From: Bacteroidota bacterium
GTDB lineage: Bacteria > Bacteroidota > Bacteroidia > Cytophagales > Cyclobacteriaceae
Direction: 5' to 3'
Length of the DNA: 64,000 nt
Assembly (NCBI GenBank): GCA_016191555.1
Contig: JACPVX010000073.1
Location: 1 to 64,000 of the forward strand
Position numbers and translations under genes: made by a program. Shown here in pieces: positions 17,033-64,000 of this stretch (position 1 is the first letter of the stretch; each line of letters opens with the position of its first letter). Under the pieces are notes generated by a model that was given only the letters and a program-made list of their open reading frames with translations, was not told the origin of the DNA and searched no databases.

Positions 17033-17238
17033 TTGCTTCGGTTTTTGAAAGGTAACACTTTGAAAGTGTGACGGATCGCAAAACAAGGCATTTTGATTTT
17101 TTAATCAAAGTGAAAATCCGACCAGAAGTAATAAAAACAGAACATTTCCCATCACTATTGACATCCCCTACTTCGCCCAACTAATAACCACTTAACTATT
17201 TCGCATCATCTGTCGAATTGATAACTTGCAAGCTGAAT

Positions 17239-18738
17239 ATGCAGCGTTTAGGACTAAATCAATCACTTCAGCAAAAACTGTCTCCCCAACAGATTCAGTT
17301 TATCAAGTTATTGCAAGTGCCTACTGCAGAGTTGGAAAACCGGATTGAAGAAGAATTGGAGATAAATCCCGTTCTCGAACAAGGCGAAGACGATGATCGG
17401 ATAGATGATAACCATCCGGATGAAGTTCCAACTGATGATTTGCCCGATGGTGATGCTCCTGTTGAAGAGGTGAATCCCAATGATGAAATCGATATCAACG
17501 ATTACCTGCGGGATGACGACTATGGTAGCTACAAAACCTACAATGATGGCGATGATGAAGATGAGCGTGAATCGCCCGTAGCAACTTCTACGTCTTTGCA
17601 TGAAACGTTGATGACCCAATTAGGATTTTTGGGTTTAGACGATAAAAATTATACCATCGGCAAACAATTAATTGGCAGCATTGAAGGTGATGGTTATATC
17701 CGTAGAGAACTTGATTCGATCGTAAATGATCTGGCCTTTTCGCAACGAGTAGAGACCAATATCGAGGAAGTAGAATCAATCCTCCGAAAAATTCAGTCTT
17801 TTGATCCTGCCGGTATCGCAGCTCGCAATCTGCAAGAATGCCTGCTGCTGCAACTGGATAGAATGGATGATGGGCAAGATGTAGACGTGATTGTAGCTAA
17901 GCGCATTTTAAATGAGTGCTACGAAGAGTTTACCAGAAAGCATTACCCGCGCATTTTGAAGAAACTCGATTTGGATGATGAAGATTACATCAAAGATGCC
18001 ATCGAGCTGATTGTGCGCCTCAACCCCAAGCCGGGAGGCGAAGTAGCCTCTGGAATGGTGAAAAATCAATATGTCATTCCCGATTTTATTTTAGTCAATA
18101 ATAATGGCAAGCTCGAGCTTTCACTCAACTCGCGCAATGCCCCTGAGTTACGCATCAGCCGATCGTACAATGAGATGTTCCACGCCTACGAAAAGAGTGA
18201 TAAAAAGGACAAAAAGCTTCGCGAGGCAGTCGCATTTGTCAAGCAGAAATTAGACTCGGCCCGGTGGTTTATCGATGCCATTCGTCAACGTCAGATCACT
18301 TTATTGAAAACCATGCGTGCGATCGTTGATTTTCAGTATGACTATTTTTTGGAAGGTGACGAGACGAAGCTAAAACCGATGATTTTAAAGGATGTGGCCG
18401 GTATGATCGGTATGGACATATCTACGGTAAGCCGGGTGGCTAGTAGCAAAACCGTGCAAACTGATTTCGGCATCTTTCCGCTGAAGTATTTTTTCTCCGA
18501 GGGTATCACCACCGATTCTGGCGAAGAAGTGAGTAGCCGCGAGGTAAAACAGATTATCAAAGATATCATTGACGCTGAGGATAAGAATAAACCTTTGGCA
18601 GATGATAAGCTGGAGGAAATGCTCAACGAGAAGGGTTATAACATTGCCCGCAGAACAGTTGCTAAATACCGGGAGCACCTAAATATACCGGTGGCACGAT
18701 TACGAAGAGAATTTAAATCAGGTGAAGAGCGCAGCTAA
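17239..18738 (+). CDS. rpoN: RNA polymerase sigma-54 factor
   Basis: N-terminal MQRLGLNQSLQQKLSPQQIQFIKLLQVPTAELENRIEEELEINPVLE, C-terminal RpoN box ARRTVAKYREHLNIP. Confidence 0.97.
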   Translation: MQRLGLNQSLQQKLSPQQIQFIKLLQVPTAELENRIEEELEINPVLEQGEDDDRIDDNHPDEVPTDDLPDGDAPVEEVNPNDEIDINDYLRDDDYGSYKTYNDGDDEDERESPVATSTSLHETLMTQLGFLGLDDKNYTIGKQLIGSIEGDGYIRRELDSIVNDLAFSQRVETNIEEVESILRKIQSFDPAGIAARNLQECLLLQLDRMDDGQDVDVIVAKRILNECYEEFTRKHYPRILKKLDLDDEDYIKDAIELIVRLNPKPGGEVASGMVKNQYVIPDFILVNNNGKLELSLNSRNAPELRISRSYNEMFHAYEKSDKKDKKLREAVAFVKQKLDSARWFIDAIRQRQITLLKTMRAIVDFQYDYFLEGDETKLKPMILKDVAGMIGMDISTVSRVASSKTVQTDFGIFPLKYFFSEGITTDSGEEVSSREVKQIIKDIIDAEDKNKPLADDKLEEMLNEKGYNIARRTVAKYREHLNIPVARLRREFKSGEERS

Positions 18739-52228: not shown

Positions 52229-53125
52229 ATGAAGCTATTGAGCCCCACCTCCTGGACAGAATATGAATTACTAGATTCAGGTGATTTTGAAAAGCTAGAA
52301 CGTTTTGGGAAGTATATTCTAATTCGCCCTGAACCCCAGGCCATCTGGGAGAGATCACTAAGTCAACAAGAATGGCTCCAGTTATCACATGCTCACTTTA
52401 CGCGCGAACAGAAAGACAACTTTCGATTTGGAGAAGAGATTAAGGGAGGTTGGAAAAAATACAAGACGATGCCCGATAGCTGGGATATCAATTATCAATA
52501 TGGAAAGCTGAAATTGAAGTTACGTCTCGCATTGACAAATTTTGGGCACGTTGGGATGTTTCCAGAGCAAGGTCAGAATTGGAATTTTATTTACGATACC
52601 GTCACTTCATGGAATATTCAGGATGCACGAGTTTTAAACCTCTTCGCATATACTGGTGCAGCTTCGGTAGTGGCCAAAGCAGCAGGAGCGGATGTAACCC
52701 ATGTTGATGCCTCCCGACCTGGTTTAAACTGGGCAAATCAAAATATGCAAGCCAACCAGCTCAACGATATTCGTTGGGTGCATGAAGACGCCCTCAAGTT
52801 TGTGAAGCGTGAAGCCAAACGGGGAAAGAAATACAATGGAATCATTATGGATCCTCCACCTTACGGGCGCGGTCCAGAAGGGGAAAAGTGGACATTGGAA
52901 GAAAAATTAAGTGAATTACTTTCATTGAGTAGTCAGCTATTGGAAGACAAACATTCTTTTTTAATCTTATCCATGTATGCTGTTGGATTTTCGCCATTGG
53001 TTGGATTAAATGTTGCTAGGACTTACTTTAAAAATATTGAGCCTGAGTTTGGCGAATTCTTTTTACCCGGTAAAGAGGGCAAAGATTTGCCGATGGGTAC
53101 TTTTTTAAGATTTGCTTCTAGATAA
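52229..53125 (+). CDS. Class I SAM-dependent methyltransferase (RlmI-like)
   Basis: Likely start ATG 52229 (MKLLSPTSWTEYELLDSGDFEKLERFG); LNLFAYTGAASVVAKAAGADVTHVDAS, GIIMDPPPYGRG. Confidence 0.92.
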   Translation: MKLLSPTSWTEYELLDSGDFEKLERFGKYILIRPEPQAIWERSLSQQEWLQLSHAHFTREQKDNFRFGEEIKGGWKKYKTMPDSWDINYQYGKLKLKLRLALTNFGHVGMFPEQGQNWNFIYDTVTSWNIQDARVLNLFAYTGAASVVAKAAGADVTHVDASRPGLNWANQNMQANQLNDIRWVHEDALKFVKREAKRGKKYNGIIMDPPPYGRGPEGEKWTLEEKLSELLSLSSQLLEDKHSFLILSMYAVGFSPLVGLNVARTYFKNIEPEFGEFFLPGKEGKDLPMGTFLRFASR

Positions 53126-53259
53126 TTCAAACAGTCAGCCCATATTTTCTTCGAAGGAATAAGCGCAATTTATTTTTGAAATACTCTGACTAGCATCTTT
53201 CATAGGCTAATCCAGGCATAAGAAAATCAAATCTCAGCGGCCTGCAAATACCTCAGTTT

Positions 53260-53299
53260 ACTAACGAAAAAACGAAAAAATTAACGATATATCGTTAGT
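53260..53299. promoter_or_regulatory. Putative activator site cluster upstream of the sigma-54 promoter (contains a perfect 16-bp palindrome)
   Basis: ACTAACG...AACGAAAAAATTAACGATATATCGTTAGT; TAACGATATATCGTTA at 53282-53297 is a perfect palindrome. Confidence 0.5.
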
Positions 53300-53346
53300 C
53301 CTAAAAACCCGACCTCGTTTCCAGCTCAATTTCGCAGATTTTCGAT

Positions 53347-53362
53347 TGGTATGACTTTTGCC
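53347..53362 (+). promoter_or_regulatory. Sigma-54 (-24/-12) promoter
   Basis: TTGGTATGACTTTTGCC: GG at 53348-53349, exactly 10 nt, GC at 53360-53361. Confidence 0.7.
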
Positions 53363-53394
53363 TAGAGAATTTGTACAAAGCTGAAATAAATTCA

Positions 53395-53517
53395 ATGGTT
53401 TTACGAATAGCGGTCTTATCCATAATATTTCTACCTACAGTGATAATAGTTGTTGTTGATGTAATGAGTAGCGTTAAGAAAAGTGAATTGGATAAGATGA
53501 AATATTCTAACAAGTAA
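53395..53517 (+). CDS. Possible 40-aa single-TM microprotein
   Basis: MVLRIAVLSIIFLPTVIIVVVDVMSSVKKSELDKMKYSNK*, between a sigma-54 promoter and an intrinsic terminator; could instead be a non-coding transcript. Confidence 0.35.
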   Translation: MVLRIAVLSIIFLPTVIIVVVDVMSSVKKSELDKMKYSNK

Positions 53518-53578
53518 TCTACCTGCCATGGTAGTAAAAGTGCTCAACGAGGTTTTGGGGAAGACTAATGTTGAGCAA

Positions 53579-53605
53579 GCCCTCCGAAAGGAGGGCTTTT
53601 TTTTT
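53579..53605 (+). terminator. Intrinsic terminator
   Basis: Perfect 7-bp stem GCCCTCC-GAAA-GGAGGGC followed by nine T. Confidence 0.9.
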
Positions 53606-53648
53606 ATTGATGCCCCAGAAGAAGCTTAAAACCTCCCCAAAACTTACT

Positions 53649-53686
53649 TTTTCGTTAAATAAAAACAGTCATTTCGTTTTTAGAAA
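53649..53686. promoter_or_regulatory. Composite two-box CGTT element
   Basis: TTTTCGTTAAATAAAAACAGTCATTTCGTTTTTAGAAACGA; CGTT at 53653 and 53675 (22 bp apart). Confidence 0.5.
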
Positions 53687-53760
53687 CGAATTATGGGAAA
53701 AAATAGAAGCTGGAAAGACAGAAAAGTTGATAATTAGCTCAATTTCGATGGTTTAAAAAC

Positions 53761-53776
53761 TGGCCTTTAATTTGAT
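53761..53776 (+). promoter_or_regulatory. Degenerate sigma-54-like promoter upstream of glycosyltransferase
   Basis: CTGGCCTTTAATTTGATA: GG-N10-GA; -12 GC not conserved and the start codon is very close. Confidence 0.3.
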
Positions 53777-53787
53777 AACGTCTGCGT

Positions 53788-54954
53788 ATGAAAATAGCAA
53801 TTGTTATCAATACAACTTGGAACATCTTTAATTTCCGAATGGGATTATTAGAAGCGCTTCAAAGTGATGGTCATGAAATTCACGCGATTTCACCTGCAGA
53901 TGAATATGTAACTCATTTAGTCGATACAGGGATTATCCACCACCATGTGTCGATCAGTGCACATGGAAGCAATCCAATTAAAGATTGTGCACTATTAATG
54001 GATCTAATGCGTCTCTATATCAAAATCAAACCCGATGTGATTCTTCACTATACCATAAAGCCCAACATCTATGGTTCATTGGCGGCTGCAATATTAAAAA
54101 TACCTGTTGTCAATAACGTATCTGGTCTGGGCTCTGCATTTCATCGCAAAACGATCACATATTACATGGTTCAACTGCTCTATAAACTTGCTTTTATAAA
54201 TGCTGACAAGATTTTCTTTCAAAACAACGAAGACAGAAATTTCTTTGTCCAGAAGAAATTAGTTCGAAGTGCAAAAACTGACCTCCTGCCCGGTTCTGGA
54301 ATCAATTTGCGTAAATTTCATCCGGTTCATTATCAGAAAGGATCTCCATTTGTTTTTTTAATGGTTGCCAGACTTATTTCGGATAAAGGCATTTTTGAAT
54401 ATGTAGAGGCAATACGGCATTTAAGAAGCAAAGGATACCAAGCTAAATTTCAGTTGCTGGGTGCTTTTGATGCTAAGCCGGACCGTGCAGTGAAACCAGA
54501 AATGATAGATGCTTGGGAAAAAGAAGGTTTGTTAGAATATTTAGGCGTCACAGATCATGTGCAGGAAATCATGTCCCAATCGCATTGTGTCGTGCTACCT
54601 TCCTATCGGGAAGGAACTCCACGAGTGCTGCTAGAAGCAGGTAGCCTATGCAAACCAATCGTTGCAACGGACGTTGCCGGTTGCCATCATGTGGTGAAAG
54701 ATGGGTGCAATGGATTTTTATGCAAACCAATGGATTCCATTGACCTAGCAAACAAAATGCAACTTATTTTAGAGTCTCCGGAAGAACAACTTCGAAAAAT
54801 GGGTGAAAATGGTCGCCAATTAATAGAAACTACATTTGATGAAAATAGAGTAATTGATAAATATCGTCAAGCGATATTTCAATTTGACATCCCTCTACCT
54901 TTCAGTCTCCAGAAACGAGTGCAAAGCTTAACTGATACGATTACTGTTGGGTAG
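53788..54954 (+). CDS. Glycosyltransferase family 4/1
   Basis: 388 aa; MKIAIVINTTWNIFNFRMGLLEALQSDGHEIHAISP, VARLISDKGIFEYVEA, VLPSYREGTPRVLLEAGSLCKPIVATDVAGC. Confidence 0.95.
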   Translation: MKIAIVINTTWNIFNFRMGLLEALQSDGHEIHAISPADEYVTHLVDTGIIHHHVSISAHGSNPIKDCALLMDLMRLYIKIKPDVILHYTIKPNIYGSLAAAILKIPVVNNVSGLGSAFHRKTITYYMVQLLYKLAFINADKIFFQNNEDRNFFVQKKLVRSAKTDLLPGSGINLRKFHPVHYQKGSPFVFLMVARLISDKGIFEYVEAIRHLRSKGYQAKFQLLGAFDAKPDRAVKPEMIDAWEKEGLLEYLGVTDHVQEIMSQSHCVVLPSYREGTPRVLLEAGSLCKPIVATDVAGCHHVVKDGCNGFLCKPMDSIDLANKMQLILESPEEQLRKMGENGRQLIETTFDENRVIDKYRQAIFQFDIPLPFSLQKRVQSLTDTITVG

Positions 54955-55006
54955 GTCGGCTGTTTAGAAGTAGAATTTTAAATTTCCGATAGCTTAACCA
55001 CCGGAT

Positions 55007-55372
55007 TCAGGGCTTCAAGAATTTAGCTATTTGTAATTCCAATCGATTAAAGCCGATCGTTACCAATCCTCTATTGGTATTTTCAAATCGTATATAGCAT
55101 ATTTCAGTTTTGGTACTTCTCCAGGTTATGTAGCTTCCATGTATTTCCTGCGTGAACAGTATTTCTCGTTTACTATTTAATAACGTAAACCTGCCTGAAT
55201 GCATATTTTTTAAGTCAAGGCAATAGTTGGTCCCTTTAGTCAAAGGATAGGAGACTTCAGTACCGCCTTCGCGAATAGTCCATTCTTTGAGAGGATAGAA
55301 CCATAAGGGTGCACTTTGTGCATGGCTAACGAGAGATAAAAATAGAGATGCGATGAATAGGATATTCTTCAT
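55007..55372 (-). CDS. Secreted hypothetical protein
   Basis: 121 aa with signal peptide MKNILFIASLFLSLVSHAQS. Confidence 0.6.
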   Translation of the reverse strand: MKNILFIASLFLSLVSHAQSAPLWFYPLKEWTIREGGTEVSYPLTKGTNYCLDLKNMHSGRFTLLNSKREILFTQEIHGSYITWRSTKTEICYIRFENTNRGLVTIGFNRLELQIAKFLKP

Positions 55373-55441
55373 TGATTAAATGATTAACAGGTGCCACAAA
55401 ATATTTCAGTCAAAAAGCAAACCAAGGACTTCTCTCTGTTG

Positions 55442-55627
55442 CTAGAATCGAAAAGGTGGGCTAAATGTTTTGCGGCCATATTTTTTTTGTTTCTTCTCGC
55501 CATACGTAGTGAGCTTTTTGCCCGCTCCATAAGTAGGACAGACTGTATAGACTGTTGTGCTGCATGATGTGATTAGGAGAGCTAATCCGATGATTAAATA
55601 CTTTCCTGTGTGATTGAAATTTTTCAT
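55442..55627 (-). CDS. Small lipoprotein
   Basis: 61 aa; lipobox GLALLITSCSTTVYTVCP. Confidence 0.6.
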   Translation of the reverse strand: MKNFNHTGKYLIIGLALLITSCSTTVYTVCPTYGAGKKLTTYGEKKQKKYGRKTFSPPFRF

Positions 55628-55657
55628 AATGAATTTTGTTTTTTGCTCAATCCTCTA

Positions 55658-55675
55658 TTCAAATTGCGAGCCAAA
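55658..55675 (-). promoter_or_regulatory. Degenerate sigma-54-like promoter for the small lipoprotein
   Basis: Reverse strand TTTTTGGCTCGCAATTTGAAT: GG-N10-GA; a CGTT-containing AT-rich box lies ~75 bp upstream (55740-55760). Confidence 0.3.
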
Positions 55676-55950
55676 AACAAAAACCCTTTAATTCAATTGG
55701 AAAGCGTGTTTTTGATCTTTTTCCATTTATAAAAAACTGGTTTTTCGTTTTATATAAACAAAAAAATGTTTGCTAAAAGCGAAAATGGGTTATCTCAACC
55801 TTGGTGAAGTAAGCAGATACGGTAGTGAATCAGAATCTTTGAGATCATTCTACTTTTTATTTTTTCCAACATCGAAAATTGATTTTCATTTTAGCTCTAG
55901 CGTGCTATAAAACTCACCTAGTGGGTATACTTAGAGGCTCGAAAATGAGC

Positions 55951-55998
55951 TTTTTTCGTTTTTAGAAAACAGTGATTTCGTTATATATCGTAAAAACC
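55951..55998. promoter_or_regulatory. Composite two-box CGTT element
   Basis: TTTTTTCGTTTTTAGAAAACAGTGATTTCGTTATATATCGTAAAAACC; CGTT at 55957 and 55979. Confidence 0.55.
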
Positions 55999-56053
55999 AC
56001 TTTTTCGATTTGCTGAAAATGGCGTTTTTAGCTCAAAAACAGCGTTTTCGAGT

Positions 56054-56071
56054 TTGGCATAATGCTTGGTA
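56054..56071 (+). promoter_or_regulatory. Near-consensus sigma-54-like promoter
   Basis: TTTGGCATAATGCTTGGTA: TGGCA...TTG with GG-N10-GG (C to G at -12). Confidence 0.4.
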
Positions 56072-56112
56072 TGCACCACACGTCTTCAAACATTTTTTGA
56101 AGGCAAATATTT

Positions 56113-57183
56113 ATGCCAACTACAATAAAAAAGTTTCGATTCATTTTAGTGCTGGTCATCGTAGGCTTCTTTGTGGAAGATGCCTTTGCCCAATTTAAAG
56201 GTGCTCGCAAAATTAAAAGGTATAATTTGGTTTACAAGAAGAAGCGTAAGCGGCTAGTACGTGAAAATACATACACGGCCGTTGGCTTGTCAATGAATGC
56301 CTTAAACTATTATGGAGACTTAGCCCCTCTCCCCACCAGACTTAGCACCGATATTGGATTCACTCACCCTGGTTTTGGTCTTACATTTGTTCATCGTTAT
56401 GGCCCCAGATATACTTTTTTGGCTGAATTTTTAGTAGGTCAATTAGAAGGGTCAGATGCACAGTCGGCTGATATGAATACATCTGATGGAAAATATCGAA
56501 AGCAACGAAACGCATCCTTCAGAAATCCGATTCAAGAAATCACCGCGGTTGCCATTTTTGACTTGTTTCCTAATAAGGGTAATTATTTACATCGGGTGAA
56601 TTGGACTCCATATGTTTTTGCAGGAGTCACTCTATTTAAACATAACCCGCAAGCCCAAGCTCCGGCAACTTACTTGGATGGAACACCAAATCCACAAGCC
56701 GGTCAATGGATAGACTTACAACCGCTGGGTACGGAAGGTCAGTATTCAACTCTTTTACCAACGGACGCGAATTATGGAATTAAGCCGTATAACCTAATGC
56801 AAGTGGCAATTCCATTTGGTGTCGGAGCACGCATTCGCATTGGTGAGTACGTTGATGTGTGGGCTGACATGAGTATGCGATTCACGTTTACAGATTATTT
56901 AGATGACGTGAGTAGAAATTATGTTGATCTTAACCGAATCAAAGACCCGCTGACACAAGCCTTCTCATACAGATCCAATGAAATTCCAAATGTCGGTTTG
57001 CCAACAATAAGTCAAAATATAAATGTCAACGGTGAGATCAAACCTATATCACTAGTGAACGGTTATGGCAGCGAGTACAAGACAAATATTCGTGGCAATT
57101 CAAAGCAAAATGACATTTACACAGTAGCGTCCATTAAAGTAACCTACATCATTACCAGGCTTGGTAAAGCAAAACATAGATAA
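56113..57183 (+). CDS. Outer-membrane beta-barrel protein (DUF6089-like)
   Basis: 356 aa; signal peptide; NTYTAVGLSMNALNYYGDLAPLPTRLSTDIGFTHPGFGLTFVHRYGPRYTFLAEFLVGQLEGSD. Confidence 0.65.
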   Translation: MPTTIKKFRFILVLVIVGFFVEDAFAQFKGARKIKRYNLVYKKKRKRLVRENTYTAVGLSMNALNYYGDLAPLPTRLSTDIGFTHPGFGLTFVHRYGPRYTFLAEFLVGQLEGSDAQSADMNTSDGKYRKQRNASFRNPIQEITAVAIFDLFPNKGNYLHRVNWTPYVFAGVTLFKHNPQAQAPATYLDGTPNPQAGQWIDLQPLGTEGQYSTLLPTDANYGIKPYNLMQVAIPFGVGARIRIGEYVDVWADMSMRFTFTDYLDDVSRNYVDLNRIKDPLTQAFSYRSNEIPNVGLPTISQNINVNGEIKPISLVNGYGSEYKTNIRGNSKQNDIYTVASIKVTYIITRLGKAKHR

Positions 57184-57211
57184 CTATTACCATAATTTAA
57201 AATAAAATAAA

Positions 57212-57643
57212 ATGAACGAAGAAACTAAATTGCCAATCGTCATGGTGCTAGACCAGGACGAGATATTCCATTTCATTGTCACGAAGGTTCTCAACCGAGA
57301 CGGCATCAACTGTAATGTGATAAATTATAATAGCATCACTTCGGCAGTTTCTTATTTGCTGGAGAATGCGGAAAGCGAGGCTGAATTACCTGATTTGATT
57401 TTATTGGAGTTATATTTTCATTCAGATCAGGATGGATGGGTGTTTATTGAGTTGTTTGAAAAGATTAAGCAACGCCTGATCAAGCAGCCGAAGGTCCTCA
57501 TTGTTTCGTATACTATGAAACATGCCGACATGACAAGGGTGAGTTCCCATCAAACTATCTTTGATTTTGTTTCTAAACCATTAGATACCGATAGTATTGA
57601 TTATATCCGTGATTTGCTCAAGCCAGCCAATGAAATGAATTAA
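57212..57643 (+). CDS. Degenerate response-regulator receiver domain protein
   Basis: 143 aa; IVMVLDQDEIFHFIV acidic pocket, PDLILLELYFHSDQDGW (Glu at phosphoacceptor position), FVSKPLD. Confidence 0.85.
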   Translation: MNEETKLPIVMVLDQDEIFHFIVTKVLNRDGINCNVINYNSITSAVSYLLENAESEAELPDLILLELYFHSDQDGWVFIELFEKIKQRLIKQPKVLIVSYTMKHADMTRVSSHQTIFDFVSKPLDTDSIDYIRDLLKPANEMN

Positions 57644-57940
57644 CCCTGGGAGTTTCATTTATTATTCTCCCCTTAACTGCTTAAATCAGCAGGCATAATC
57701 CGTTATTTTCTGAAGTTCACAAATTCTTTGTGCTCGGGAACTATTTTTTTTAAAGTTCCTGAATAGTTGATTGATCCCCTCTCGTAGCGACCGACTTGTA
57801 GTCTGTAAATACTCTGGGTCAATTCATCTCCTATCTATTTTCTGTATTCGTGCCTATCGTTCAAGTCTTTGCGCGCAACTTATTTTTTATGATGAGAACT
57901 CGAATCAAGAATTCCTATCCTATGGCCCACCTATAATTTG

Positions 57941-57984
57941 ATTTTTCGTTTTTAGGAAACAGTCATTTTCGTTAAATAAAAACA
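57941..57984. promoter_or_regulatory. Composite two-box CGTT element
   Basis: ATTTTTCGTTTTTAGGAAACAGTCATTTTCGTTAAATAAAAACA; CGTT at 57947 and 57970. Confidence 0.55.
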
Positions 57985-58064
57985 ATCAAGTTTTATTTCG
58001 TTACGCCTCTCGTTTCAAATCACGTTTTTCAACTGGATTTCGCACTTTTTTTGATTTGTAATTT

Positions 58065-58082
58065 TTGGTACAGGATTTGCCA
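58065..58082 (+). promoter_or_regulatory. Sigma-54 (-24/-12) promoter
   Basis: TTTTTGGTACAGGATTTGCCA: GG 58067-58068, N10, GC 58079-58080. Confidence 0.7.
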
Positions 58083-58110
58083 AGGCTTTTTGTAAAAAAA
58101 CATCAATACA

Positions 58111-60282
58111 ATGAGCAACCAACAAACCTCTACTAACAGTAAATGGAGCATAGCATTTGCAGCTGTCCTCTTAATTTGCGCTCCCCAGGTATGGGCACAG
58201 ACATTGGGCGATTATCGTTCCATTGCAACCGGCAACTGGAGTTCCAATTCTACATGGCAAAGCTATAATGGTTCTGCATGGGTCGCGGCCACAAGCTATC
58301 CGGGGCAGTCGGCCACGGCTCCGATAGTGACTATACAAACTCCTCATACAATTACTTTAAATATAAACCCACCGCTTATAGTTGCGGATCAATTAATTAT
58401 CAATGCCGGCGCTTCTTTGGTAGACTCACCAGCTTCTCCTAGCTATACGTTGTGGACTCAAGCTCGCTTAGATGTATACGGCAATCTAAACTTTACCAAT
58501 ACGCTTACTGCAACGTCAGGCGTTCAGTCGAATTTTATATTTATATATGCAGGGGCTTTGTTTTCAGTACACACCATAAGAATAGATCGATTTGTGTCCA
58601 ACTCAGGAACGGCAACTGTAACTACTGATGTAATCAATCTCTTGCCAATTTCAACTACTTTACCATTCCCAACAGGTACGTGGATTAATCAGCCCGGTGG
58701 AACTTTCAACTTTTTGGGAGCGGCAATTACTGCGGGCCTTCACGCAAATTTTTTCAATAATACCGTTAACTACGCCTCTGCTAACACGAATCAAACAGTA
58801 AGAATTCCGGCATCGTCCTACTTTAGCCTGACAATATCGGGCAATGGAGGTAGAACAAAAACACTCCCTGCATCCACAGTTGTTTTAGAGACTGTTGCCG
58901 TACAAGGAAATTCAAATTTTAGTCTAGGGGGCTTCGATTTATTTGTGGGTGGTGATTGGAACTATTCAAGTTCAGGAAATTTTATAGCCGCTGCAAATAC
59001 CACTGTCACGCTAAACGGATCCAGTCAACAAAACATAATCAATACCGGCAATAGCTCGGGGACAATTTTCAGCAACTTTACTATCAATAATGATTTTGCA
59101 ACTTCGCCACAAATAAATGTGCAGGCCACAACGTGGGTTGACCGAACACTTACGATGTTGCAAGGAAACATCAACTTAAACGGCAATTCGTTCAATCATG
59201 GGCCTGTGGCTGGCTCGTTGACTACGCTTGTGCATAGTGGACTTGCCTCGGCCGGATGGATTTATGGAGGTCCGTATCGCAGAACTTTTCAGAATGGTGC
59301 CACGATTGCCGATGGATCTATCAGCGGTATGTTTCCGGTAGGTACAAGCCAGTACTTCCGTCCAATTTATATTTCTAGCCCTACTGTTGCAATCAATAAC
59401 CAAGCACCTACAGTTACTGTTAGCTCAGCTTCCAATGTAACCGATGTAACCATTCCGGATACCGGGGGCCCGATTGTACGACAGCATCAAGGTGCGTGGC
59501 AAATTCTTTCGCTAATCGGTGCGACTGGCGCCTATAATATAAATGCAGGCGGTTTCGGCTTTTTATACATTGGAGATGTAAACGATTTAAGGTTGAGCTT
59601 AGCGTCTTCAGTTGTAGGTGGTGCTGGTGTAAATTCTGGTACTACAACTATTCCTTTTGTACAGCGCACCGGTTTGACACCTGCCCAATTGGGTAATACA
59701 TTTTATTTGGGATCAGTAAACAAAACCAGATCTCCTCTGCCGGTTGAACTAATCGCATTTAATGGAGAAGCCGAAGGTGGCGCAGTTAACCTGAATTGGA
59801 TCACGCGCACAGAGTTGAACTGTGATTACTTTACAGTCTATCGTTCGCGCAATGGTATTGATTTTCTGCCCTTAGGAACCAAAAAGGGTGTGGGCACAAC
59901 TAAGGAACAACGCTCCTATGAAATACAAGATCAGAACCCATGGCAAGGAATCAATTATTACCGATTGGAACAAACGGATTTTGATGGAACCAAAAGTAGC
60001 GTAGCCATGATTTCTGTAGAGGCTAATGGCGCTGAGGCGATTCAATTTTATCCTTCGCACTTAATTAGTGGCCAAAATATTCACTTGCAATTACAAGGAT
60101 TAGCTCCTCAGGCTCAGATGGAAATTTATTTGGTGAATGCCACGGGCCAAACGATTGAACAGTATATTATTAACACTGATCAAGAGGGTAGGTTTTATGG
60201 AGATATCCGAATTGGGGATATCTCTGCTGGATTTTATTATCTAAAACTAAATCAGATTATTATGAAGATTCTGATTAACTAA
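58111..60282 (+). CDS. T9SS-sorted surface protein (paralogue 1)
   Basis: 723 aa; signal peptide, QTLGDYRSIATGNWSSNSTWQSYNGSAW..., C-terminal sorting-like domain (GFYYLKLNQIIMKILIN). Confidence 0.85.
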   Translation: MSNQQTSTNSKWSIAFAAVLLICAPQVWAQTLGDYRSIATGNWSSNSTWQSYNGSAWVAATSYPGQSATAPIVTIQTPHTITLNINPPLIVADQLIINAGASLVDSPASPSYTLWTQARLDVYGNLNFTNTLTATSGVQSNFIFIYAGALFSVHTIRIDRFVSNSGTATVTTDVINLLPISTTLPFPTGTWINQPGGTFNFLGAAITAGLHANFFNNTVNYASANTNQTVRIPASSYFSLTISGNGGRTKTLPASTVVLETVAVQGNSNFSLGGFDLFVGGDWNYSSSGNFIAAANTTVTLNGSSQQNIINTGNSSGTIFSNFTINNDFATSPQINVQATTWVDRTLTMLQGNINLNGNSFNHGPVAGSLTTLVHSGLASAGWIYGGPYRRTFQNGATIADGSISGMFPVGTSQYFRPIYISSPTVAINNQAPTVTVSSASNVTDVTIPDTGGPIVRQHQGAWQILSLIGATGAYNINAGGFGFLYIGDVNDLRLSLASSVVGGAGVNSGTTTIPFVQRTGLTPAQLGNTFYLGSVNKTRSPLPVELIAFNGEAEGGAVNLNWITRTELNCDYFTVYRSRNGIDFLPLGTKKGVGTTKEQRSYEIQDQNPWQGINYYRLEQTDFDGTKSSVAMISVEANGAEAIQFYPSHLISGQNIHLQLQGLAPQAQMEIYLVNATGQTIEQYIINTDQEGRFYGDIRIGDISAGFYYLKLNQIIMKILIN

Positions 60283-60296
60283 CTTACTTATATATG

Positions 60297-60341
60297 TTTT
60301 TCGTTATTAGTCGTTAGTGTTTTTCGTTGTATTTCGTAAAA
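60297..60341. promoter_or_regulatory. Composite CGTT element
   Basis: TTTTTCGTTATTAGTCGTTAGTGTTTTTCGTTGTATTTCGTAAAA; CGTT at 60302, 60312 and 60325. Confidence 0.55.
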
Positions 60342-60399
60342 GCGCCTTTTTCAAAATTTAAAAAGGCCATTTTTAACAGCATAAATAAGGTTTTAGGTA

Positions 60400-60417
60400 T
60401 GGTATAATATTTGCCTA
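60400..60417 (+). promoter_or_regulatory. Sigma-54 (-24/-12) promoter
   Basis: TATGGTATAATATTTGCCTAG: GG 60402-60403, N10, GC 60414-60415. Confidence 0.7.
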
Positions 60418-60443
60418 GGGTGCTCCTTAAATTGGATTAATTT

Positions 60444-62609
60444 ATGAGAGCATTGAAGATTATTTGCCTTAGTGTTTGTTTTAGTTTATGGGTTAACGCA
60501 TCAGTTCAACTACAAGCACAAAGTTTAGGAGATTATCGGTCTGTCGCTACGGGTGATTGGGGCACGCCATCAACATGGCAATATTACAACGGTTCGGCTT
60601 GGGTGCCATCTACTACCTATCCGGGTCAGATAGCAGCCGTTAATAATGTTACTCTGCAGAGCCCGTTTATTGTGACAGTGGATGTTAATCCCGGTTCCTT
60701 CACCAATCAAATGAATAGTCTTAGGGTGAATAATGGGGCTACCTTGAAAGACAAAGTTGGTGCGCTGTATTATGACATATCGCCCGCAGGCCAATTGGTT
60801 GTAGATGGAACAGTTAATTTGACCAATACGACAGACGTAACAGCGCGGGTGGTAGCCGCTAACTGTATTATTTCCCCTACAGGCAATCTATCTGCACATG
60901 TGTTGTGGATGGTGACTACATTTAACTATGGTATAGCAACCATCACTCATGATGTAGTTAATCTGGTTGCAATTAACCCCCTTTCAAATGTTGGCGTTTG
61001 GGCTAATCAAACAAACTCTGTTTTTAATTTTGGGGGCTCTTCGATGACCGCTGGATTACGAGCGGAATCGGATGGCAATACTGTAAACTACTATTCATCA
61101 TCGAGCAATCAGATCGTAAGAGCACCGGTTACCACCTATTATAATTTAACATTGTCAGGAACTGGTGGCACAACTAAGTCTTTATCTGCAAATACCATAC
61201 TATCAGGAACACTATCCATTCAAGGAAGTTCTAGCTTTAGCTTGGGAGGGTTTGACTTATCAGTTGCTGGTGATTGGAATAACTCCAGTACAAACACGTT
61301 AGCATTAGCAAATTCTTTGGGTATAGTTACTTTCAATGGATCAACAAATCAATCTATCATTAATACGGGAAATTATTCAGGTACTTCTTTTTACTATTTA
61401 AACATTGCTAATACTTCTGCAACGATACCTCAGATTACAATCAGTAATTCAAGTGGACAACCTACCAGGGTGGCAAATTCCTTAATCATGACTTCGGGCG
61501 TAATTAATTTGAACGGGGGGGGCTTTACTTTTGGTTCAAATTATACTAATCCAGTTGTATTTACTCATTCCGGCACATCGGCCTCCGGATGGTTTTACAA
61601 TGGAGTAGTTTATAGGTTATTAATAACAAGTTCTGCAATTGCCGCGGGATCGAATTCCGGTTTGTTTCCAATAGGAGTAAGCACGGAATTCCGGCCATTT
61701 TATATTTCAACGGTTCTTCCTTCGACTACTCCTACTTTAGTCAGCATCACAGCTCCAGGCACTTCTACTTTTGCAAATGTTTCTCTCATTGATGGTGCAT
61801 CTACTATTCGTAGGCAAAACCGTAGTGGTTGGTTAGCAAGCTCCTTTGGAAATGGTATATATAACATACGAGCCGGTGGTACAGGTTTAGGTGTCATTGG
61901 GAATATTGCAGATTTACGTTTAACTCCGGCAACTTTGGTGCTAGGAACTGCAGGGACAAATACGGGCACTACATCCAATCCGCTGGTCGAAAGAACAGGC
62001 ATAACACTTGCGGATCTTAACACAACATTTTATGTGGGGTCAGTTAACTTAATAAGCTCTCCGCTTCCGGTAGAATTGATTTCATTTAGCGGAGAAGCTG
62101 AAGGCTCAGTTGTTAATTTAAATTGGATTACAAGGTCTGAATTGCACTGTGACTATTTCACTGTTTATCGATCGCTAAATGGTATTGACTTTGTTGCAAT
62201 AGGAAACAAAAAAGGATCCGGAACAACAAAAGAGCTGAACAAATACGACCTTCAAGATACAACCCCGTTGAATGGTAATAATTACTATCGGTTGGAGCAA
62301 ACGGATTGGGATGGCTCGAAAACAATCCTTTCAATAATATCAGTTGAAGCAAATGGATCAGAAGCAATACAAGTTTATCCAAATCCTATTGAAGATGGAC
62401 AATCCGCTGAATTGAAGTTGCAGGGATTGGCATCTAATACATTTCAGTCCATTTATGTTTTTGATCAATTAGGAAGGCAAGTATTAAATTCAAAGATTCC
62501 TGTTGATGAGACTGGTGGTTTTAACGGCAAGCTCAAATTGCCGCAACTTCCCGCTGGTTGTTATTTCCTAAAGATCAACAACAATACGAAGCGCCTAATA
62601 ATACGATAA
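60444..62609 (+). CDS. T9SS-sorted surface protein (paralogue 2)
   Basis: 721 aa, collinear with 58111..60282; C-terminal AIQVYPNPIEDGQSAELKLQGL...LPAGCYFLKINNNTKRLIIR type A sorting domain. Confidence 0.9.
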   Translation: MRALKIICLSVCFSLWVNASVQLQAQSLGDYRSVATGDWGTPSTWQYYNGSAWVPSTTYPGQIAAVNNVTLQSPFIVTVDVNPGSFTNQMNSLRVNNGATLKDKVGALYYDISPAGQLVVDGTVNLTNTTDVTARVVAANCIISPTGNLSAHVLWMVTTFNYGIATITHDVVNLVAINPLSNVGVWANQTNSVFNFGGSSMTAGLRAESDGNTVNYYSSSSNQIVRAPVTTYYNLTLSGTGGTTKSLSANTILSGTLSIQGSSSFSLGGFDLSVAGDWNNSSTNTLALANSLGIVTFNGSTNQSIINTGNYSGTSFYYLNIANTSATIPQITISNSSGQPTRVANSLIMTSGVINLNGGGFTFGSNYTNPVVFTHSGTSASGWFYNGVVYRLLITSSAIAAGSNSGLFPIGVSTEFRPFYISTVLPSTTPTLVSITAPGTSTFANVSLIDGASTIRRQNRSGWLASSFGNGIYNIRAGGTGLGVIGNIADLRLTPATLVLGTAGTNTGTTSNPLVERTGITLADLNTTFYVGSVNLISSPLPVELISFSGEAEGSVVNLNWITRSELHCDYFTVYRSLNGIDFVAIGNKKGSGTTKELNKYDLQDTTPLNGNNYYRLEQTDWDGSKTILSIISVEANGSEAIQVYPNPIEDGQSAELKLQGLASNTFQSIYVFDQLGRQVLNSKIPVDETGGFNGKLKLPQLPAGCYFLKINNNTKRLIIR

Positions 62610-62629
62610 GTGCGGGCTGAATTTTGAGC

Positions 62630-62675
62630 TTTTTGTTGATTAGTCGTTAGTGATTTCGTTATATATAAACAAATT
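62630..62675. promoter_or_regulatory. Composite CGTT element
   Basis: TTTTGTTGATTAGTCGTTAGTGATTTCGTTATATATAAACAAATTG; GTT boxes at 62634, 62645 and 62657. Confidence 0.55.
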
Positions 62676-62730
62676 GATTATTCTAAAATCGAAAAAGTGC
62701 GAATTTGGCCTTTTTAGGCGGTTTTTAGTT

Positions 62731-62748
62731 TTGGTACAGCTTTTGTTA
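62731..62748 (+). promoter_or_regulatory. Sigma-54-like promoter upstream of the enhancer-binding protein gene
   Basis: TTTTGGTACAGCTTTTGTTA: GG 62733-62734, N10, GT 62745-62746; near-identical to the 58067 promoter. Confidence 0.5.
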
Positions 62749-62860
62749 AGCAAAGTGCAGAAACAAGCACATTTTAAATCGTTGAACGCCATCAAAATTG
62801 TGGTTCGACTAATAAACTTAAGAGCATTTTATCTAACTTTTTAAAACTAAACCCTAACTC

Positions 62861-64000
62861 ATGAACCTCCCTAATCCCAACATTCTTTATTTGGATGACG
62901 AAGAAGATAACTTGACTGTCTTCAAATCAACATTCCGTCAAAAATTCAATGTATTAACGGCTACTACTGCACAAGCTGCAATGTCCTTACTTCAGCAAGT
63001 ACCAGTAGGCGTTGTTTTATCGGATTTTAGATTGCGCGAAACGACAGGAATTGATTTCCTTAAAACTGTTTCGGAGTTGTATCCAAACACCGTGCGCATT
63101 TTGATTAGTGCCTATGGCGAAAAAGAAACCGTCATTCGGTCTATCAACGAGGCCAAGGTATTCAGCTTTATTACCAAGCCATGGGATAAAGAGGATATTG
63201 AGCGAGTGATTAGCAGCGCTGTTAATTTGTATCACTTGAAGTTCAAGAATGAGGAGTTAATCACCAATCTGACTATGACGATTGATGAACTAACCATTGC
63301 CAATAAAGAGATTAAGGTACTAAAGGCTAAGCTCCAAAAAGAAAATGAATACTTACGCAGAGAGATTGATAATAACCGCGGAAGTATAGAATGGATTGGT
63401 GCGGGTGAAAAAATGCAATTGGTTAAACAAAAAGTTAGTCAAGTAGCGAAGTTAAATACCGTTGTGTTGATAAAGGGTGAAACAGGAACCGGCAAGGATT
63501 TGGTAGCCAGATCCATTCACGCTTTTAGTAATCGAGCAGCAGCACCCTTTGTCACGTTGAATTGCTCAGCTCTTCCGGGGAACTTAATTGAAAGTGAGCT
63601 ATTTGGTTTTGAGAAGGGTTCTTTTACTGGAGCTTTGAATAATAAAGAAGGCCTTTTTGAATTAGCAGATGGCGGCACCATATTTTTGGATGAGATAGGA
63701 GAGATGTCCATTGAATTTCAGGCGAAGTTACTAAGAGTACTTCAAAACGGTGAGTTCTATCGCATTGGTGGCTTAAAGCCGATCAATGTAGATGTTCGAA
63801 TCATAGCAGCAACCAATCGCGATCTGGAAGATTCAATGAACACGGGAAGATTTCGAACTGATTTGTTTTATAGACTTAATATTTTCCCGATTAGTTTACC
63901 GCCATTACGAGAGCGACAAGAAGATATTCCTGAATTGGTAAAGCACTTTTTGGATAAGTTTCAGAAAAAGCTAGGAATTGAAGTTACATCTGTTTCAGAT
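62861..64000 (+). CDS. Sigma-54-dependent response regulator, NtrC type (REC + AAA+; C-terminus beyond the window)
   Basis: Open frame to window end, absent from the ORF track. MNLPNPNILYLDDEEDNLTVFKSTF, VVLSDFRLRETTGIDFL, FITKPWD; GETGTGKDLVARSIH, ESELFGFEKGSFTGA, GGTIFLDEIGEM, FRTDLFYRLNIFPISLPPLRER. Confidence 0.96.
   Translation, partial: MNLPNPNILYLDDEEDNLTVFKSTFRQKFNVLTATTAQAAMSLLQQVPVGVVLSDFRLRETTGIDFLKTVSELYPNTVRILISAYGEKETVIRSINEAKVFSFITKPWDKEDIERVISSAVNLYHLKFKNEELITNLTMTIDELTIANKEIKVLKAKLQKENEYLRREIDNNRGSIEWIGAGEKMQLVKQKVSQVAKLNTVVLIKGETGTGKDLVARSIHAFSNRAAAPFVTLNCSALPGNLIESELFGFEKGSFTGALNNKEGLFELADGGTIFLDEIGEMSIEFQAKLLRVLQNGEFYRIGGLKPINVDVRIIAATNRDLEDSMNTGRFRTDLFYRLNIFPISLPPLRERQEDIPELVKHFLDKFQKKLGIEVTSVSD

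Follow-up and report, generated by a model that had tools for sequence, protein, structure and literature searches.

Tandem CGTT elements set whole helical turns upstream of sigma-54 promoters are probable enhancers of a response-regulator activator in a Cyclobacteriaceae genome

Why does one AT-rich element, built on CGTT boxes, recur ahead of successive genes near one end of a 64,000-nucleotide stretch of a Cyclobacteriaceae genome (contig JACPVX010000073.1, positions 1 to 64,000; the window in what follows)? A sequence-only reading had aligned five copies and proposed that they are upstream activating sequences, set at helically phased distances from sigma-54 promoters, of a bacterial enhancer-binding protein (bEBP), namely the response regulator whose gene starts at 62861. 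The five quoted strings were each found once, at 55951, 57941, 60297, 62631 and 53649, and the sigma-54 machinery of this genome (G000; 4.1 Mb, 77% complete; other G numbers likewise denote genomes) comprises one rpoN and three strong bEBPs. The features on which the argument turns are given below, with distances counted from the first T of the second box to the first G of GG-N10-G (the -24 GG):

53647..53688, forward strand: two-unit element 5' of the glycosyltransferase gene 53788; sequence-model match.
53760..53777, forward strand: weak sigma-54-like site CTGGCCTTTAATTTGATA (GG at 53762, CTGGCCTTTAATTTGA); distance 90.
55951..55994, forward strand: two-unit element 5' of the PorG-like gene; model E 1.2e-9; identity with the G382 ortholog 96%.
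56054..56071, forward strand: sigma-54 promoter TTGGCATAATGCTTGGTA; distance 80; identical in G382.
57941..57985, forward strand: two-unit element 5' of the gene for secreted-type protein 58111; model E 4.4e-7.
58065..58082, forward strand: sigma-54 promoter TTGGTACAGGATTTGCCA; distance 100, also 100 in G382.
60296..60340, forward strand: two-unit element 5' of the gene for secreted-type protein 60444; model E 9.9e-9.
60399..60416, forward strand: sigma-54 promoter ATGGTATAATATTTGCCT; distance 79.
62629..62672, forward strand: two-unit element 5' of the regulator gene; model E 5.5e-7; conserved in G380 and G382.
62731..62748, forward strand: sigma-54 promoter TTGGTACAGCTTTTGTTA; distance 79, and 78 in G380 and G382.
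62861..64000, forward strand, and onward to contig position 64336: response-regulator bEBP of 491 aa with receiver, AAA+ and putative Fis-type helix-turn-helix; probable reader of the element.
17218..18738, forward strand: rpoN (sigma-54), sole copy found; PF04552 match 18235-18708, E 9.1e-55.

At the five sites the distances are 80 (55954), 100 (57944), 79 (60299), 79 (62632) and 90 (53650). The earlier figures, which were counted from the C of CGTT and therefore gain 3 here, are right within 1 nucleotide, with two amendments: in the promoter of the 60297 site, 60402 is the second G of the GG and 60401 the first, and the promoter of the 53650 site is weak. The latter is the poorest case of the series, having a poor promoter at 53762 and an alternative GG-N10-GG at distance 78. 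Across this genome, twelve clear promoters lie at 79 (five), 80 (five), 69 and 100, and less certain sites, the anchors of which were picked by hand, lie at 90 (53650), 68, 67, 81 (reverse strand) and 89 (minus-strand 55672). Rayleigh analysis of this genome gave a peak between 10.5 and 11 bp, and for the sites away from the modal distance, agreement with the phase exceeded that of uniform placement (P about 0.002 to 0.01).

The same pattern was recovered in a held-out set of 52 sites from four sister genomes that had played no part in forming the idea, using a promoter matrix trained on this genome only, without a distance term, and a cut-off score of >=10. A sigma-54 promoter (GG-N10-G) lies downstream in 40 of the 52, at distances of 78 (2), 79 (13), 80 (15), 81 (3), 69 (3), 91, 99, 100 and 120. 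The seven off-mode distances match the phase predicted from this genome (P about 0.0002 versus uniform placement), although this P value, like those above, is optimistic since the sites are related by descent and several are orthologous to sites in this genome. Thus, the proposed rule of about 77 bp plus 0, 10 or 20 held as a periodicity in 40 sister-genome sites (69, 78-81, 91, 99-100 and 120), and the lengths are plainly quantised, departing from a single distance by full turns of the helix. Of the 12 remaining held-out sites, seven match a promoter-like sequence on the opposite strand, with a divergent -12 in five cases. A second class of copies (L088, L288, L315, L317, L322 and L323) has a reverse-strand promoter with TTTTCTTA as the -12 in place of TTTGG/TTTGC.

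The element itself is a tandem, head-to-tail pair of ~22-bp units, TTTCGTTnTATAwCGTTAGTnA followed by TTTCGTTnTATATCGTTA. Its outer boxes are 22 or 23 bp apart, as had been claimed, which is slightly more than two 10.5-bp turns; the two-box CGTT element originally described is thus real, but its unit is better given as a ~22-bp tandem repeat with right arms that look interchangeable. These arms are of two kinds: AAAACAGT / AAACGAAT, which are inverted with respect to the left arm, and TCGTTAGT, which forms a direct repeat 10 bp further on. In the site at 57944 the first right arm is AAACAGT in this genome and TCGTTAGT in the G382 ortholog, and because both types occupy the same position in orthologous promoters, an activator might conceivably read half-sites in either orientation, an idea that we regard as rather unlikely. 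To our knowledge, such two-orientation recognition is found in no described bEBP.

A degenerate pattern for the element matched five times in the window and not once in 100 dinucleotide-preserving shuffles, and the largest family reported by a repeat finder in the window includes four of the five elements. A scan of positions 53000-63500 with Rfam recovered no known RNA family. An initial sequence-only model (eight sites) already found further copies in this genome; a refined model built from 15 sites, with matches counted at E<=0.01, gave 21 matches here and 0 in 58 relatives (36 of the same genus), so that the motif is not a common AT-rich sequence. At least 10 elements are present in only five genomes, all congeners, of the 397 in the family (this one included). 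Chance AT-rich repeats were accordingly rejected on the shuffle control, the relatives' genomes and the 397-genome family scan. Many copies outside the window again precede sigma-54 promoters (e.g. TTGGCACGCTCTTTGG and TTGGCACGAGTTATGC); the cluster first noticed is real, but the regulon reaches far beyond it. At L023, L004, L030 and L084-L086, tandem repeats of ~20 bp (e.g. GGCGCTGCAAGCTTCTTGTA, GCGGAGAGTCAGGACGCATAG) lie 3' of the element or promoter, and those of L004 and L023 precede small unknown open reading frames (ORFs).

Between orthologs, the element is better conserved than the spacer and flanks. In five comparisons covering three promoters, identity was 80-96% for the element, 59-68% for the spacer, 35-69% for the upstream flank and 67-100% for the promoter. 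Ahead of the regulator gene, G000, G380 and G382 share a conserved element and -24/-12 region within sequence that otherwise drifts. The PorG-like gene, the response regulator and the secreted-type proteins are clustered in G382 too, with distances of 80, 100, 99 and 79.

The receiver and AAA+ domains of the 62861 product are those of a response-regulator activator of sigma-54. Its receiver (PF00072) has D12, D13, D55 and K106 invariant in five homologs, all of which also share a variant of the GAFTGA-type loop, GSFTGA, in the AAA+ domain (PF00158, E 7.8e-70). The C-terminal region, which resembles a helix-turn-helix (HTH), has no Pfam HTH match, yet it aligns with the C-termini of other bEBPs, and the NorR and FhlA profiles match the protein through this region (residues 128-483 and 136-485). 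The protein differs from NorR and FhlA in having a receiver rather than a GAF domain at the N-terminus. The NtrC profile scores 366.8 bits against a cut-off of 558.6, and assignment as NtrC, NorR or FhlA proper was rejected, all scores being far below curated cut-offs. The only full-length orthologs (80-90% identity) come from G362, G380 and G382, each of which carries the element. The HTH-like region is near-identical among the four genomes with the regulator (G000, G362, G380, G382), and its core KISGKGSAAEIL-LNHNTLRSTMTRL is the same in all of them. A scan of named genomes gave no ortholog, the matches reaching at most 50% identity. The next full-length homolog, from G330, is 52% identical and has a different HTH; G330 is not among the element carriers. 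No such site was found at 25 loci near distant bEBP homologs of about 50% identity. Convergent with the regulator gene is a receiver-histidine kinase, a candidate partner (L328:1761-2858 on the plus strand, L010:2965-3498 on the minus strand).

Taken with the downstream sigma-54 promoters and the helical phase, this co-occurrence supports the earlier proposal, and we judge, with a probability of roughly 85%, that the 62861 bEBP uses the element as its upstream activating sequence (enhancer). The two ~22-bp units, about two turns apart, would seat a pair of activator dimers on approximately the same face of the helix. Phosphorylation of the receiver, probably by the neighboring receiver-histidine kinase, would lead the AAA+ domains to assemble, and the ~80 bp between the second box and the -24 would loop, bringing the ATPase into contact with sigma-54 polymerase to open the promoter. 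The activator would stay on the right face only with loops of ~80 bp, or of lengths that differ from this by whole turns (69, 80, 90, 100, 120). The element ahead of the regulator gene is proposed to mediate autoregulation.

Several observations weigh against this assignment. G390 carries the element, and no 62861 ortholog was found among the 470 contigs of its assembly, which is about 92% complete. G362 has the regulator, with only a very weak element ahead of the regulator gene. At a few sites, neither strand shows a clear promoter. The carriers may form a single clade, so the co-occurrence could be one shared event. With G000 only 77% complete, a further bEBP may have been missed.

The same incompleteness, the elements of G390 and the several other bEBPs of congeners favor a different account, in which the element is a sigma-54 enhancer read by another bEBP and the 62861 gene is merely one target. 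We consider it improbable, since full-length 62861 orthologs are confined to element carriers and the other two strong bEBPs are unlikely readers: one lacks an HTH, and the HTH of the other is near-identical in element-free congeners. L011 encodes a 386-aa sigma-54 activator that lacks an HTH; many relatives have homologs of about this length.

The number of copies, about 20 per genome, and a few copy pairs that are near-identical, flanks included (L031/L032, L084-L086), might instead point to a dispersed mobile repeat resembling a miniature inverted-repeat transposable element, which carries its own promoter and lands upstream of genes by chance. However, the likeness stops at the two units and the promoter, paralogs' spacers differ in sequence yet keep their length modulo one turn, and orthologous copies hold their place while flanks drift; inspection by eye showed neither conserved ends nor target duplications, no search aimed at them being made. 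This origin is therefore very improbable. Least credible is an AT-rich site for a general DNA-bending protein, with the phasing arising from bending rather than an activator: the element and most spacers are AT-rich and the spacers show weak A-tract phasing (P=0.018), a value on which intrinsic spacer curvature was also set aside as an explanation, but the element is specific and occurs in a handful of genomes, almost all of which have the regulator, unlike the sites of general architectural proteins.

The assignment of the element as an enhancer of the 62861 activator also sits well beside known systems. NtrC-type sites are paired, lie roughly 100 bp upstream of GG-N10-G[C] and are read by a receiver-AAA+-HTH protein. 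The present case shares the paired sites, the promoter type and a candidate reader with receiver, AAA+ domain and HTH-like C-terminus, but its units are head-to-tail with variable right arms, unlike the plain dyads generally known for NtrC-type sites. In the open-access literature we found no described Bacteroidota case; a Vibrio precedent was found. The Vibrio qrr enhancers have tandem LuxO sites ~80 to ~120 bp from sigma-54 promoters in ~11-bp steps (PMC4740811), and share with the element described here tandem sites 5' of a sigma-54 promoter, a response-regulator bEBP and phased loop lengths. Whereas the LuxO/qrr system concerns small-RNA genes in Vibrio, here the site sequence is different, the targets are protein genes, and the phasing is apparent both between species and across many promoters of a single genome. 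By analogy, the architecture matches that of the LuxO/qrr enhancers, and the type of system would in principle be already known.

Which genes would such an enhancer serve? The earlier list of five cluster sites was correct but missed two, at 53280 and on the minus strand near 55750. These sites and the neighboring genes are as follows:

53280..53299, forward strand: element of one unit, ATTAACGATATATCGTTAGT, with a palindrome in its inner 14 bp; distance 68 (GG at 53348).
53346..53363, forward strand: sigma-54-type promoter TTGGTATGACTTTTGCCT; promoter matrix score 17.3.
53395-53517, forward strand: ORF, ~40-aa peptide containing a hydrophobic stretch; follows the sigma-54-like promoter at 53348.
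53788..54954, forward strand: glycosyltransferase, 388 aa (PF00534).
55442-55627, minus strand: small lipoprotein-like ORF, 61 aa, behind the minus-strand promoter at 55672.
55671..55672, minus strand: -24 GG of sigma-54-like promoter TTGGCTCGCAATTTGAAT, weaker than the other sites.
Near 55750, minus strand: likely unit TTTGTTTATATAAAACGAA, 89 bp upstream of the promoter at 55672.
56113..57183, forward strand: PorG-like outer membrane protein, 356 aa (PF19573).
57212..57643, forward strand: single-domain response regulator, 143 aa (PF00072).
58111..60282, forward strand: secreted-type protein, 723 aa, paralog of 60444; no Pfam match.
60444..62609, forward strand: 721-aa protein with a C-terminal sorting domain of the type IX secretion system (T9SS; PF18962, TIGR04183).

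In the window the regulon would thus include the glycosyltransferase 53788, the PorG-like gene 56113 (probably with the response regulator 57212, which from its position is likely co-transcribed), 58111, 60444 and the regulator itself, and possibly the 40-aa hydrophobic peptide and the small lipoprotein. A terminator-like hairpin lies near 53580, downstream of the ORF for the peptide. The PorG-like protein matches NF052316 (T9SS_PorG) at 1.4e-27, below the curated cut-off. Of the two ~720-aa secreted-type proteins only the 60444 product reaches the threshold for the T9SS sorting domain; the C-termini of both are alike, as judged by eye.

Elsewhere in the genome, element-linked genes encode small proteins of at least three families, for which neither Pfam nor NCBIfam provided a family. 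Homologs of the dispersed F3 proteins in relatives have no element upstream; F3 genes therefore do not carry it everywhere, which for this small-protein family suggests that genes have been recruited to the regulon. One family of unknown proteins, ~240 aa long, is present in eight copies here (L035, L038, L083 and L178 versus L187, L189 and L191), only some of which have the sigma-54 promoter; its homologs in relatives lack the element.

These observations connect a probable enhancer with its likely activator and with a genome-wide regulon, in a lineage that its T9SS signatures suggest to be Bacteroidota and in which sigma-54 regulation has been little studied. Dozens of natural promoters with loops differing by whole turns amount to a natural experiment on DNA looping. 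The element also links several unknown protein families and T9SS-type secreted proteins to one regulator, giving a first functional handle on them, and because it is confined to a few species of one genus, the origin of a regulon can be followed.

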